Below are positions 24,684 through 37,906 of a stretch of DNA of 44,966 bases, one piece after another (the first letter of the stretch is position 1; each line of letters opens with the position of its first letter). Under the pieces are notes generated by a model. The model was not told the DNA's origin, did no database searches, and saw only the letters and a program-made list of their open reading frames with translations. Both the position numbers and the translations under genes were made by a program. Origin of the DNA: Deltaproteobacteria bacterium (lineage in GTDB: Bacteria; Myxococcota_A; Polyangia; JAAYKL01); contig JAUXHN010000010.1 in NCBI GenBank assembly GCA_030621515.1, positions 1-44,966 of the forward strand, in the 5' to 3' direction.

Positions 24684-26027
24684 ATGCCGAGTGAACAACC
24701 GACCATGGTGATAGTGGACGATGACAAAAACAACGTGCTCGCTCTCGAAAAGGTGTTCGACAGGGAGGGGGCCCGCGTTTTCACCGCCCTGAGCGGCCAG
24801 GAGGCCCTGGACCTCTGTCGCAACCACTCGGTCGACGTGGTGCTGACGGACCTGATGATGCCGGGCATGGACGGCAATGAGCTCCTCGAGACGCTCAAGA
24901 CCATCTCGCCGGACAGCGAAGTGGTACTCATGACCGCTTACGGCACGGTCGAGAACGCGGTTGCCGCCATGAAAAGAGGGGCCTACGATTTCGTGGAGAA
25001 ACCGGTCAAGCGCCAGGCCATTGTCAAGACGGTCAGGAAGGCCATCGAAAAGCACTCCCTGGTGGTGGAGAACAAGACCCTCAAGAAACGCCTGATGAAG
25101 TTCGAAAAGCGCTCGATAATCGGAAACGCGCCGTCCTTTCGCAAGTGCATGGAGACAGCCATCCAGGCGGCGCCATCCGTGGCCACCATCCTGGTGCTCG
25201 GGGAATCCGGCACGGGCAAGGAGTTGGTCGCGCGCGCGATTCACGAGAACTCCACCAGGTCCCAGGCCTCCTTCGTGGCGGTGAACTGCGCGGCCATACC
25301 TGAAACCATCATGGAGGCGGAACTGTTTGGATACGAACGAGGCGCCTTCACTGGAGCCATCCAGAGGCGTGACGGGCGCTTCAAGATGGCCGACCGGGGC
25401 ACGATCTTTCTGGACGAGATTGGAGAGATGAGCCAGGCGGCACAGGTCAAGCTACTGCGGGTGTTGCAAGAAGGTGAGTTCGAGTCCCTCGGAGGCAAGA
25501 CGATACAATCCGATGTACGAGTGGTGACGGCGACCAACCGAGATCTTGAAGATGACGTCAAGCGCGGGGTGTTTCGCGAGGATCTCTATTACAGATTGAA
25601 TGTCATTGTGGTGAACCTCCCCCCCCTGCGCCAACGACTTGAGGACATCCCTCTACTGGCCGACCATTTTCTGTCGATGTACACGGCGCGCAACAACAAG
25701 CAGATCGAGGGGATCTCTCCGGATGCTCTGGATCTGATGACCAGCTACTACTGGCCCGGCAACGTGCGCGAACTGGAGAATGTGATCGAGCGGGCAGTGG
25801 TCCTGAGCCGCAACAGCATCATCGAAATAAACGATTTGCCCTCGCGCATCAGCGATGAAGAGCGATACCAGGGTCAGATCACCGTCTCCATCGGAACTCC
25901 CCTGGAAGAAATGGAGCGAAGGATGATCAGGGAGACCCTGCGCCATACCAAGGGAGACAAAAAACTGGCTGCGCGCCTCCTGGGGATCGCCACCCGCACA
26001 ATCTACCGCAAGCTGGAATCATTATAA
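24684..26027 (+). CDS. NtrC-family sigma-54-dependent response regulator
   Basis: 447 residues in three domains. The receiver (1-120) has VIVDDDKNN, phospho-acceptor D56 in LTDLMMPGMDG and the EKPVK lysine. The AAA+ domain (about 142-375) has the Walker A GESGTGKE near residue 173, the sigma-54 contact loop GAFTGA, the Walker B region TIFLDEIGEM and the GNVRELENVIERAV sensor segment. The C-terminal Fis-type helix-turn-helix (about 405-447) is KKLAARLLGIATRTIYRKL. It should hydrolyse ATP to open sigma-54 promoters after phosphorylation. No histidine kinase is adjacent. AAGGAG precedes ATG 24684. Its own promoter and that of gspD are sigma-54 type, so it is the obvious candidate regulator of the secretion operon. 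Confidence 0.95.
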   Translation: MPSEQPTMVIVDDDKNNVLALEKVFDREGARVFTALSGQEALDLCRNHSVDVVLTDLMMPGMDGNELLETLKTISPDSEVVLMTAYGTVENAVAAMKRGAYDFVEKPVKRQAIVKTVRKAIEKHSLVVENKTLKKRLMKFEKRSIIGNAPSFRKCMETAIQAAPSVATILVLGESGTGKELVARAIHENSTRSQASFVAVNCAAIPETIMEAELFGYERGAFTGAIQRRDGRFKMADRGTIFLDEIGEMSQAAQVKLLRVLQEGEFESLGGKTIQSDVRVVTATNRDLEDDVKRGVFREDLYYRLNVIVVNLPPLRQRLEDIPLLADHFLSMYTARNNKQIEGISPDALDLMTSYYWPGNVRELENVIERAVVLSRNSIIEINDLPSRISDEERYQGQITVSIGTPLEEMERRMIRETLRHTKGDKKLAARLLGIATRTIYRKLESL

Positions 26028-26072
26028 CTTCGAAACTTATTTGTCATTGAGTCACCCCCGGACAGCGCCGTT

Positions 26073-26085
26073 TGACAATTTGTCC
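26073..26085 (+). promoter_or_regulatory. Dyad upstream of gspD, likely enhancer-binding site
   Basis: TGACAATTTGTCC contains the perfect dyad GACAA-T-TTGTC and matches 10 of 13 bases of the dyad before the regulator gene. It lies about 99-111 bp upstream of the predicted gspD transcription start, almost the same distance as its counterpart. Further TGTCA and GGACA half-sites lie nearby (26042, 26060). Confidence 0.5.
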
Positions 26086-26157
26086 GTTCGGGATCTTCCC
26101 GGCGAAACGGCTCGCTCTAACTACTTGTTTTTGCACAATAAAACGCATGGGCGGTTT

Positions 26158-26173
26158 AGGCATGATGTTTGCT
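26158..26173 (+). promoter_or_regulatory. Sigma-54 (-24/-12) promoter of the type II secretion operon
   Basis: AGGCATGATGTTTGCT matches TGGCACGNNNNTTGCW except at two fixed positions, with GG (26159-26160) and GC (26171-26172) ten bases apart. Transcription should start near 26184, which makes the TTG codon at 26185 untranslatable in practice and supports the gspD start at 26209. Confidence 0.7.
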
Positions 26174-26208
26174 TTTAAAAGGGGTTGGATAGAGAAGGGA
26201 GTAGCGAC

Positions 26209-30742: not shown

Positions 30743-31966
30743 GTGCCCCTTTACCAATACCAGGGAATCCGAAAGGACAACGGAAAGAACGTCAAGGGTT
30801 CCAAGGACGCCGACAGCGAGAAGATGCTGCGCGCGATCCTCAAGCGTGAAGGGATCATGATCGTCAAGATCGTCGAGAAGGGGCATAAGGGGGAACGCAA
30901 AGAGGTAGACTTCAAGAAGATGCTGTTCGGCCGGGTCAAGAGGTTTGACATCGCCATGGCCACGCGACAGCTCGCCACCCTTACTCGCTCGGGGATTTCC
31001 CTGGTGGAATCTCTGACCGCCGTGATCGATCAAAGCGAAAAGGCGGATCTCAAGACGGCCCTGATCGACGTGCGCGATCAGGTGAACCAGGGAATGAGCC
31101 TGTCCGATGCATTCGGAAGACACCCCAAGTACTTTGACAATCTTTTTTGCAACATGGTGAACGCGGGTGAACAATCGGGCACTCTGGAGCAGGTTCTCGG
31201 CCGGCTCTCGGACTTCATCGAGGCCCAGAACAAGCTCCGCTCCAAGGTGTTCTCGGCCATGGCCTACCCCGCCGTGATGGCCGCCATGGGACTCGTCGTT
31301 ATCAGCATCCTGATGGTCGTCGTCGTGCCCAAAGTGACCTCCATCTTCGAAAACTTCGGTCGCGAGCTGCCGATTTACACGAGGGCGCTGATCTGGGCGA
31401 GCGATTTCATGCGCGACTTCTGGTGGTTGCTCCTGGCGGTCTTCATTCTTTGCATCGTCTCGTTCAAAAAATGGAAGAACACCGAAAAGGGCCGGTACAA
31501 GTGGGACGGTTTCATCCTGTGGGCTCCAATCTTCGGAGGCCTGGCCATGATGGTCGCCATCTCCAGGTTCACCAAAACGCTGGCCACGCTGCTCTCGTCA
31601 GGGGTGCCGCTGCTCACTGCAATGGACATCACCAAGGGCGTGCTCGGCAACACTGTTCTCGAACAGGTAATCGTGGAGGCTAGTTCCTCGATCCGCGAAG
31701 GCGAGAGCATCGCCGAGCCCCTCAAAACTTCCGGTCGTTTCCCGCCCATCGTCACACACATGATCGCCGTGGGCGAGCGGTCCGGCCAGCTGGAGAGCAT
31801 GCTCGAGAACGTGGCCGATGCATACGACGCTCAGGTCGATACCAAGATCGCAACCCTGACATCGCTCCTCGAACCGTTGATGATCGTGCTCATGGGCGCG
31901 GGCGCCGGCGGAATAGCTGCGGCGATTCTCATGCCGCTGATACAGATGAACGAGTTTGTTCAATGA
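30743..31966 (+). CDS. gspF: Type II secretion inner-membrane platform protein GspF
   Basis: 407 residues starting with GTG 30743. The N-terminal MPLYQYQGIRKDNGKNVKGS and the two repeated cytoplasmic helical domains (about residues 65-190 and 270-390) with the LATLTRSGISLVES and LATLLSSGVPLLTA signatures define GspF/PilC proteins. Three membrane helices are present (about 170-195, 222-242 and 375-400). It is the polytopic core of the platform, contacting GspE, GspL and the pseudopilus. Its stop overlaps the next start (ATGA). Confidence 0.96.
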   Translation: MPLYQYQGIRKDNGKNVKGSKDADSEKMLRAILKREGIMIVKIVEKGHKGERKEVDFKKMLFGRVKRFDIAMATRQLATLTRSGISLVESLTAVIDQSEKADLKTALIDVRDQVNQGMSLSDAFGRHPKYFDNLFCNMVNAGEQSGTLEQVLGRLSDFIEAQNKLRSKVFSAMAYPAVMAAMGLVVISILMVVVVPKVTSIFENFGRELPIYTRALIWASDFMRDFWWLLLAVFILCIVSFKKWKNTEKGRYKWDGFILWAPIFGGLAMMVAISRFTKTLATLLSSGVPLLTAMDITKGVLGNTVLEQVIVEASSSIREGESIAEPLKTSGRFPPIVTHMIAVGERSGQLESMLENVADAYDAQVDTKIATLTSLLEPLMIVLMGAGAGGIAAAILMPLIQMNEFVQ

Positions 31967-32373
31967 GTGAACGAGGTTCCATGGTTCTGGGTGAAAAAAG
32001 GCGACGACACCCCCTGGGGAAAGTCGGCCGCCGAATTCGCTGGATCGTTATCGCCCTTGCGGTCGCGGGATGCGTGAGCTGGTCCCTGGGGTCTGTAGAC
32101 GAGAAAACCCGAATAAGACAGGCGCTGGTCGACATCTCGCGGATCAGTCACGCAACGCGTCTCTTTCGGGCCGATTTCGGCCGATGCCCCACCGGTGTCG
32201 AGGAGCTGACAGATCCGCCCGAGGGAACCTCGTACATGAACATGATAAAAGATCCGTGGGGGAGGTCATACCGACTGACCTGCCCCGCGCGCCTCGATCC
32301 GGGCGGCGTGGATGTAGTTTCGGGCGGCCCTGATGGTGAGACAACTGGAGATGACAACATTTCGAGCCTTTGA
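31963..32373 (+). CDS. GspG-like membrane protein lacking a prepilin motif
   Basis: 136 residues starting with ATG that overlaps the gspF stop. A basic N-terminus (EKRRRHPLGKVGRRIR) and one membrane helix (about residues 26-44) are followed by a domain that closely follows the major pseudopilin: HATRLFRADFGRCPTGVEEL, then DPWGRSYRL, then VSGGPDGETTGDDNISSL, the loop that binds calcium in GspG. The prepilin cleavage motif (G-F/M-T-L-x-E) is absent, so it should not be processed by the prepilin peptidase but stay as a membrane-anchored GspG-like domain. It sits between gspF and gspG. It could cap, seed or replace the pseudopilus, or be a decayed GspG copy. Confidence 0.8.
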   Translation: MSERGSMVLGEKRRRHPLGKVGRRIRWIVIALAVAGCVSWSLGSVDEKTRIRQALVDISRISHATRLFRADFGRCPTGVEELTDPPEGTSYMNMIKDPWGRSYRLTCPARLDPGGVDVVSGGPDGETTGDDNISSL

Positions 32374-32402
32374 ATTTGGCTGCAAGACAGGAGGATGAAC
32401 AC

Positions 32403-32810
32403 ATGCAACGCCGGAACGACAAATTTTTGCGACGCACAGCGGCTTCGGTAGCCCAGAGAGGTATGACTCTCATCGAGATCATGATCGTCATTATCATCAT
32501 GGCGATGATCGCGACGGGCGTCTCCCTGGCCGTCATGAAGCAACTCGACAAATCGAGGATAAAGGACGCACGAATGGGCGCGTGCACCATGCGTTCGGCG
32601 GTGCAGCTCTACATGGCGGACCACCCCCGCCAGTGCCCGAGTCTCGATGACCTGATGGACGGGTACCTCGACTCCAAGAAGCGCGTCCAGGATCCCTGGA
32701 ACCAGGATTACACCATCGAGTGCGAAGGTGACGAGCCCGACGTCTACTCCGCCGGACCCGACGGAGAAGGCGGCAAGCCCATTCGCTGCGAGAAAGGCGA
32801 GGACGAATAG
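32403..32810 (+). CDS. gspG: Type II secretion major pseudopilin GspG
   Basis: 135 residues from ATG 32403 (AGGAGG eight bases before). A longer-than-usual leader ends in QRG, followed by MTLIEIMIVIIIMAMIATGV, the class III prepilin motif with the fifth-position glutamate; cleavage after the glycine is expected. The C-terminal domain has LYMADHPRQCPSLDDL and the ending DPWNQDYTIECEGDEPDVYS then AGPDGEGG, but the calcium loop is shortened compared with classical GspG and ends in an acidic tail. It polymerises into the pseudopilus in the periplasm. Confidence 0.93.
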   Translation: MQRRNDKFLRRTAASVAQRGMTLIEIMIVIIIMAMIATGVSLAVMKQLDKSRIKDARMGACTMRSAVQLYMADHPRQCPSLDDLMDGYLDSKKRVQDPWNQDYTIECEGDEPDVYSAGPDGEGGKPIRCEKGEDE

Positions 32811-36304: not shown

Positions 36305-37906
36305 ATGGCTCAGAACGTAATAGGCCTCGATCTCGGAAGCCATACCGTCAAGTTGGTGGTCTTGAAGATGGGGCTGCGTGGAAGCGAGATCGTCAAGTTC
36401 GAGACCGAGCCCGTGAAGCTCGACTCGAGTGGCAACTCCTCAGAAAAGGAAGTCCTCGAGGCGGCGAAACGTTTGATCGAAAGGTTGGGAATAACCACCG
36501 AAATCATCCACTGCGCCGTTCCCGGAGAGGTTGCAACCATCAGGATCATCAACCTGCCGTCGAGCGCCTCGCGCAGCATCGAACAGGTACTCAAATTCGA
36601 ACTCGATGAGATCATTCCCTACGACATCGAGGATTCGGTCTTCGATCACGTGGAGATCGAGCGAGCGAACGACGAGATCAAATTACTGTGCGCCGTGGTT
36701 CCCACCCAGAAGGTACGACTGTTCCTCGATGGGCTGGCGCCCGCCGGTGTCTATCCGCGAGAGGTGGGTGTCGCTCCCCTGGTTTACAAGGAGGATTCGA
36801 CCATTGCGACAGCTTGCGGCGACGAGGTCTGCGCTCTGGTGGATATCGGCCACCTGCGAACCAACGTGGCGATTCTCGGGGATCCGGTACACACGACGAG
36901 AACAATCCTGCGCGGCGGAAAGGACCTGACCTCCCAGCTTGCAAAGGTGGGAAATGTATCCTTTGAAAAGGCGGAGGAATACAAGGTTCGGGACGGCCTG
37001 CACGGAAAGGTTCGCGAGGTCCTCGGCGACGCCCTCAAGCCGCTGATACGAGAGATTCGCCAGACCCTCAAGGGGCATCTGGCGGCGGGCGGAAAGAGGG
37101 CGACGAGGGTACTGTTGTGCGGGGGCAGCTCGTTGATCAGCGGCCTCGAGACACTGATGGCCAATGAGCTGGGTATCCCCGTGCAGCGCTACAGCGTACC
37201 TCTCGACGGCGTCCTCAAAACCGGAACCGAACCGCCGGCGCATGAAACCGCCGTGCAGGCACACGCTCTTGCTCGAAGGGAAGATCTCCAGCGGGCCAGG
37301 AGGTTCAATGTTCGCCGCAATGAGCTGGCCTTCAAGGGCGATTACGAATTCCTGAAGAGGCGAATGGTCTGGGCCGCGACGCTCGTTTTCGCAATATTGG
37401 TCGCATGGGGCTTCACCAACTACGTCAAGTACGGCATTCTCGCCGACGAGGCCGATGCGCAAATTGTGTCCTTAAAAGAGCAGACCATGGAGCTCTTCGG
37501 CAAGGCCATCACCGACAAGACGACCATTGAAAAGAAGCTCGCATCAAAGGACGAGAGCAAGGCGCCGATGCCGACGTATGACGCCTTCGATATCGTCGTG
37601 GAACTCTCTCGCCGGATACCTGTCTCGGTTGTGCACGATGTGGACTTGCTGGACATCAAGCCCAAACGAATAACCATAAAGGCCATGGTCGATTCGGAGA
37701 TCAAGGCTGAAATCACACCCGGACAGGCGCTGGAGGAAGGACAGTCGGATCCTGCGCAAGAGGTTCCGCAACTGTCTCCGACGGATCTTATCCAACAGAA
37801 GCTTTCCGAGTTCACAGAGTGCTTCACAACGATCAGAATAGGCAAGGTGCAGACGGTCAAGGAGCGCAAGAAGTACCAGATGGATATTGAAAGCAAGTGC
37901 CCATAG
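36305..37906 (+). CDS. gspL: Type II secretion inner-membrane protein GspL (PilM-like actin fold)
   Basis: 533 residues. The cytoplasmic part (1-335) has an actin-like fold resembling PilM: VIGLDLGSHTVKLVVLK is the phosphate-1 motif, with CALVDIGHLRTNVAIL and RVLLCGGSSLISGLE as later nucleotide-site signatures. A membrane helix lies at about residues 359-378, and the periplasmic part (380-533) carries the ferredoxin-like domain (RIPVSVVHDVDLLDIKPKRI, then ITIKAMVDSE). GspL recruits GspE to the membrane. Its strong PilM likeness is common in deltaproteobacterial systems. Three bases separate it from gspK. Confidence 0.9.
   Translation: MAQNVIGLDLGSHTVKLVVLKMGLRGSEIVKFETEPVKLDSSGNSSEKEVLEAAKRLIERLGITTEIIHCAVPGEVATIRIINLPSSASRSIEQVLKFELDEIIPYDIEDSVFDHVEIERANDEIKLLCAVVPTQKVRLFLDGLAPAGVYPREVGVAPLVYKEDSTIATACGDEVCALVDIGHLRTNVAILGDPVHTTRTILRGGKDLTSQLAKVGNVSFEKAEEYKVRDGLHGKVREVLGDALKPLIREIRQTLKGHLAAGGKRATRVLLCGGSSLISGLETLMANELGIPVQRYSVPLDGVLKTGTEPPAHETAVQAHALARREDLQRARRFNVRRNELAFKGDYEFLKRRMVWAATLVFAILVAWGFTNYVKYGILADEADAQIVSLKEQTMELFGKAITDKTTIEKKLASKDESKAPMPTYDAFDIVVELSRRIPVSVVHDVDLLDIKPKRITIKAMVDSEIKAEITPGQALEEGQSDPAQEVPQLSPTDLIQQKLSEFTECFTTIRIGKVQTVKERKKYQMDIESKCP

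Follow-up and report, generated by a model that had tools for sequence, protein, structure and literature searches.

The window, i.e., the whole stretch of 44,966 nucleotides analyzed here, carries a type II secretion operon comprising gspD, gspE, gspF, X, gspG, gspH, gspI, gspJ, gspK, gspL and gspM. X and gspG both encode proteins with a GspG domain: the product of gspG has the prepilin motif of a pseudopilin, while that of X has a membrane anchor without this motif. The question raised by the locus is what an anchored GspG-like protein of this kind might do between the genes for the platform protein GspF and the major pseudopilin. The names gspD, gspE and gspM, as well as that of a gspN-like gene, were given by place and reading of the open reading frames, without a family search. 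Upstream of gspD, the window holds only an NtrC-like regulator (24684-26185).

The GspG domain and membrane anchor of X

X (31963..32373, + strand; 136 amino acids) was delineated by its T2SSG profile match, its orthologs and its structural model, and consists of a cytoplasmic tail (residues 1-26), a membrane helix (approximately residues 27-43) and a GspG domain (residues 44-136). In a Pfam profile search of the window proteins, T2SSG (PF08334) matches residues 47-132 of X (1.1e-12) and N_methyl (PF07963) does not match it; the sequence likewise has no G[FM]T[LI][IL]E motif before the hydrophobic anchor (32041..32091, + strand). The domain includes DPWG at residues 97-100 and the loop SGGPDGETTGDDN at residues 120-132 (32320..32358, + strand), delimited by ortholog alignment. 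The first-pass annotation had described X as the GspG C-terminal pattern mounted on a motif-less membrane anchor, a description which these features bear out. In the whole genome the T2SSG matches are X and GspG, with no third, and in the window the two proteins share 32% identity over 93 positions. The NCBI equivalog TIGR01710 scores X at 36.8 bits and the neighboring GspG at 46.1 bits, both below its cut-off of 88.85, and hence does not discriminate between them.

We take the C-terminal loop of X and GspG to be of the calcium type; for X, this label derives from alignment with GspG structures. In the alignment of X orthologs (A3), S120, G122 and P123 are invariant and G125 and D131 are conserved in at least 90%, while the residue following the GP is aspartate in 41 and serine in 19 of the 63 X proteins read. 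By sequence, the loop of X is calcium-type, with putative calcium binding.

The AlphaFold2 model of X (mean pLDDT 77.5, pTM 0.57) shows one long helix spanning residues 20-72, followed by the GspG domain. Its top matches among solved structures are GspG proteins (3g20, Z 12.7 over 99 residues; 3fu1, Z 12.4, 1.9 A), the PulG pilus subunit 5wda is matched at Z 11.4, and the sequence profile of X agrees, with a GspG chain match at 8e-16. Structure prediction thus returns the GspG fold that had been supposed for this protein.

The fold and helix length of X match residues 1-129 of PulG and the genome encodes prepilin peptidases, which would suit an atypical pseudopilin that is processed at a non-canonical site and then joins the filament. 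However, this is very unlikely, given that not one of the 63 X orthologs read has a G[FM]T[LI][IL]E-like site and that their tails (about 25-35 residues) remain basic as far as the anchor. X should stay out of the filament, because prepilin peptidase cannot remove this tail and the motif with its Glu5 is missing. A further candidate reading, in which X is a lipoprotein, or a soluble periplasmic protein after signal cleavage, was suggested by the lipobox-like VAGC at residues 34-37 in the genus of the window. It is highly improbable and was rejected: VAGC is limited to this one genus, the cysteine is present in 3 of the 14 family members, and in most X proteins 16-18 hydrophobic residues are immediately followed by charged ones.

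Distribution and origin of X

X without a prepilin motif is encoded upstream of a motif-bearing GspG in all 14 genomes of the window's family, and it is also found in two named MAGs, at 96% and 94% identity. The motif-less X is neither chance nor an assembly fault nor a local mutation, an assembly fault being excluded by its recurrence across the family and by the MAG copies. Further, T2SSG matches 59 of the 59 aligned X proteins (A3) in a profile search and N_methyl matches none, while both profiles match all 22 neighboring GspGs of the control set (A2, which goes without the GspG of L023). When 239 genomes of the window's class, each at least 85% complete, were searched with a profile of 59 X proteins, at least 143 had X, at scores of at least 107.7 bits; 63 X loci were read and the rest were assigned through the gap to the next match, an ordinary GspG at 97.7 bits, and the 143 is a lower figure because the diverged X proteins of G123 and G073 score below the cut. 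In a phylum-wide sample, 31 of 188 genomes have X (at least 122 bits), all of them in the window's class. Outside this class X was found in none of the sampled genomes, the best match there being a GspG with the motif at 88.9 bits.

The 63 loci read derive from 15 family groups. They include L092, L093, L098 and L099, which are absent from A3, and the window's own X (L003), which stands in A3 as the window; left out of the counts were L001 and L002 (the same window region), L033 and L034 (named copies of G002 and G001) and the 10-base stubs L071 and L129. The order gspF-X-gspG is seen in 62 of the 63 loci and X is kept in place across at least 14 families. The annotation of an anchored protein with the GspG fold between gspF and gspG therefore holds class-wide. 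In the single exception (L061, genome G164), an X with a PWE-type tail is followed by an RNase III-like gene, and neither gspF nor gspG is in view. Conversely, in G095, a genome of family f14, gspF runs directly into gspG, so that X has been lost there; taken together, these two cases indicate that X is at times dispensable. In L062 (G075, family f8), both X and GspG pair closely with those of L058, a genome of family f11, which suggests transfer or mis-binning. A GspC was sought with PF11356 and found in none of the 14 family genomes; the profile also finds none in several X-free genomes and a weak GspC in the X-carrying f14, a pattern that neither favors nor opposes a replacement of GspC by X.

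In a tree of the full-length sequences (63 X, 88 GspG and 3 motif-less duplicates), a single branch (99/95), recovered in 98% of 200 bootstrap trees, divides the X proteins from the rest, a separation to which the motif region itself may contribute. When the tree is restricted to the periplasmic part, X no longer forms one group and requires 2 changes, with 5 of the 63 X proteins, apparently including the f5 rows, falling on the GspG side; in a reduced set of 52 rows, a single X clade is not rejected (p-AU 0.514). From these trees, a single origin of X appears likely.

The three duplicates are motif-less GspG-like copies behind gspG (L097, L063 and L089, in f10, f20 and f48, respectively), and the position of the L063 copy is the reason for counting it as a duplicate and not as X. 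They arose separately, with 3 changes in both trees, and the L097 and L089 copies group next to their own GspG; hence, the motif has been lost after gspG duplication more than once. Such tandem copies lend some color to the idea that X is itself a decaying, functionless gspG duplicate. We give this almost no credence, since X is in place in so many families with its tail motif and loop conserved, and its dN/dS within the genus is 0.08-0.16, as against 0.24-0.30 for GspG (three pairs each). These values indicate purifying selection on X, and decay is refuted for the main family, though it could hold for single lineages.

The neighboring GspG and its shortened loop

The major pseudopilin gene gspG (32403..32810, + strand; T2SSG 4.1e-8, N_methyl 1.5e-6) encodes the prepilin motif GMTLIE. 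Its preferred start is the ATG at 32403 over the TTG at 32370, with a GGAGG 8 nt upstream (Shine-Dalgarno sequence at 32390-32394). The loop of this protein is GPDGEGGKPIRCEKGEDE, from which the DD pair is absent, and the first-pass annotation was thus correct in assigning it the MTLIE motif together with a truncated loop. The GspG alignment additionally reveals an extra cysteine pair, with Cys61 (32583..32585, + strand) in the helix and Cys129 (32787..32789, + strand) in the shortened loop. Nine of the 14 family members, including the window, have a GspG whose loop has lost the DD pair and acquired a cysteine, with a second new cysteine in the first helix. Among 88 GspGs, 10 have both cysteines, 3 only that of the helix, 3 only that of the loop and 72 neither; as 9 of the 10 form one clade, the pair was gained in two events at most, not ten. 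In the GspG of the window, a cysteine pair, presumably forming a disulfide, probably stands in place of the calcium site. The X proteins of L007, L008, L009, L011, L013 and L014 are extended by 6-12 residues at the C terminus, and all six occur with a cysteine-type GspG.

The first-pass annotation had gone on to propose that X and GspG split the functions of GspG between them, one supplying the full loop and the other the motif. This does not survive as a general rule: about 51 of the 62 GspGs beside X keep a calcium-type loop (by regular expression with by-eye correction for L035, L059 and L013, a rougher regular expression having given 55), so that a complete GspG normally coexists with X. 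The full loop is accordingly not exclusive to X, and X has taken over no function lost by GspG. The shortened loop of the window is a local change of a sub-clade of nine genomes.

The platform, the cytoplasmic tail and the role of X

The gene preceding X, gspF (30743..31966, + strand), encodes the platform protein (T2SSF 7.1e-66; TIGR02120 459.7 bits, over its cut-off), and in the window its stop codon and the first codon of X share the 4 nt ATGA. Inspection by eye places the start of X on, or at most 2 nt from, the gspF stop codon in 13 of the 14 family members, and finds a Shine-Dalgarno sequence of at least five bases before X in none of the 14 as opposed to 13 of the 14 before gspG. We infer from this arrangement that X is made in GspF-like and not filament-like amounts. 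Further, in distance matrices for 62 loci, the partial correlation of X with GspF given GspG is 0.37, and that of X with GspG given GspF is 0.19, the highest of 999 permutations being 0.16; these correlations are weak and in line with a platform role.

These observations also bear on the possibility that X is a chaperone or reservoir, which would bind membrane-embedded GspG monomers ahead of their assembly and hold them in a folded or stored state, without itself belonging to the platform. The GspG fold, the adjacent gene, the membrane anchor and the weak co-evolution of X with GspG would all fit such a partner. However, the expression expected for X is low relative to GspG, which argues against one-to-one holding, and a conserved cytoplasmic motif would be superfluous for that task, making this an unlikely explanation.

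The motif in question, [LFMN][PS]WE, directly precedes the membrane helix and occurs in 40 of the 63 X proteins as compared with 0 of 88 GspG leaders. Outside the window's family and families f5, f18 and f17, the usual tail of X is [IV].[LF]PWE[RK]R. At the equivalent place the window's family has a reduced tail, [IV]LG.KR, which in the window reads VLGEKR (residues 8-13; 31984..32001, + strand) and aligns with the motif of the other families. If PWE is a docking site, the site must therefore have been altered here. A candidate partner of the tail is GspL (36305..37906, + strand), which combines a PilM-like cytoplasmic domain (PilM_2 2.6e-26) with a membrane helix and matches a PilM-PilN fusion (PDB 5eou) at 4.8e-16. 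GspL has a juxtamembrane motif of its own, conserved in X-carrying and X-free genomes alike, so that the putative docking site for X may be filled in cis; no clear pattern of co-change with X was observed at this motif. The DLGS actin-type phosphate motif at the start of GspL is lost in the X-carrying families f14, f25, f27, f28 and f17 (L100-L139) and kept in f1, f3, f4, f7 and f20; in f7 the NLRxGEF juxtamembrane motif of GspL is also lost. PilN binds PilM through its first eight residues, according to one study (PMC6325625). The PilN tails of the window's class are INLLPxK-like, without Trp-Glu, in the 24 loci, out of 30, where the pattern was found, and the PilN domain PF05137 matches 0 of 59 X proteins. 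The apparent resemblance between the tail of X and that of PilN, which binds PilM, amounts to no more than a lead.

The PWE-type tail motif, along with the start on the gspF stop codon without a ribosome site of its own, suggests that X is a fixed platform subunit and not a filament subunit. The best reading is that X is a non-polymerizing GspG paralog fixed in the inner-membrane platform of the type II secretion system, and we would give a probability of roughly 0.45 to a platform subunit that works as receiver or template at the pseudopilus base. X would lie next to GspF, its tail docked to the cytoplasmic face, for which the PilM-like domain of GspL would be the first candidate partner and GspE or GspF others. 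From there it could present a GspG-shaped surface at the pseudopilus base, to which incoming or last-added GspG subunits would bind, such that X may receive or template new growth and perhaps also tether the filament at its base. An interaction of GspG with GspF is described from two-hybrid tests (PMC8134430). A more far-reaching version, in which X is an undescribed core subunit whose PilN-like docking tail binds the PilM-like domain of GspL while its GspG domain binds the growing pseudopilus, so coupling the ATPase side to the next GspG, is doubtful.

A brake or terminator, sitting as a cap at the pseudopilus base and restricting pseudopilus length by filling the position of the next GspG, would call on the same features, i.e., a GspG fold fixed in the membrane with an uncleavable basic tail that cannot enter the filament core, and nothing distinguishes it from the template role in this respect. 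Nevertheless, the above dN/dS values indicate that X is more constrained than GspG, which one would not expect of a simple inhibitor, and such a brake seems improbable. Taken together, the data point to a platform-bound role, in which starting, guiding, holding and stopping the filament are not separated from one another, nor are template, brake and chaperone. If X is a platform subunit, the membrane-retained GspG domain could serve as a stable, naturally occurring replica of the subunit within the platform, and X suggests an undescribed part of the fiber-building base in a large myxobacteria-like group. It also illustrates that a gspG-like gene in an annotated operon is not guaranteed to have a pseudopilin as its product.

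No description of an X-like protein was found in open-license PubMed Central text. Comparisons are with partial counterparts. GspG, PulG and EpsG share with X the T2SSG domain, the fold (Z 11-13), the long first helix, the calcium-type loop and a gene within the gsp operon. Unlike them, X lacks the prepilin motif and Glu5, retains a basic tail with an extra cytoplasmic motif, has a lower expected expression and is encoded ahead of the true gspG. The mitochondrial GspG1 and GspG2 are GspG paralogs as well, from a system in which no GspO homolog was found (PMC8134430); as described there, they keep Glu5 and features of the processing site, whereas X does not. PilN of the type IV pilus resembles X in its short cytoplasmic tail and in a hydrophobic stretch with a proline before one membrane helix, and the operon of X encodes a PilM-like domain, that of GspL. 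However, the PilN tails of the class lack the Trp-Glu pair, the periplasmic domains are unrelated and X has no PF05137 domain. In Geobacter, a pilin-like domain exists as a separate protein (Spc/PilA-C) encoded next to the pilin gene (PilA-N). There it is the pilin itself that is split in two, whereas here GspG is complete and X is additional.
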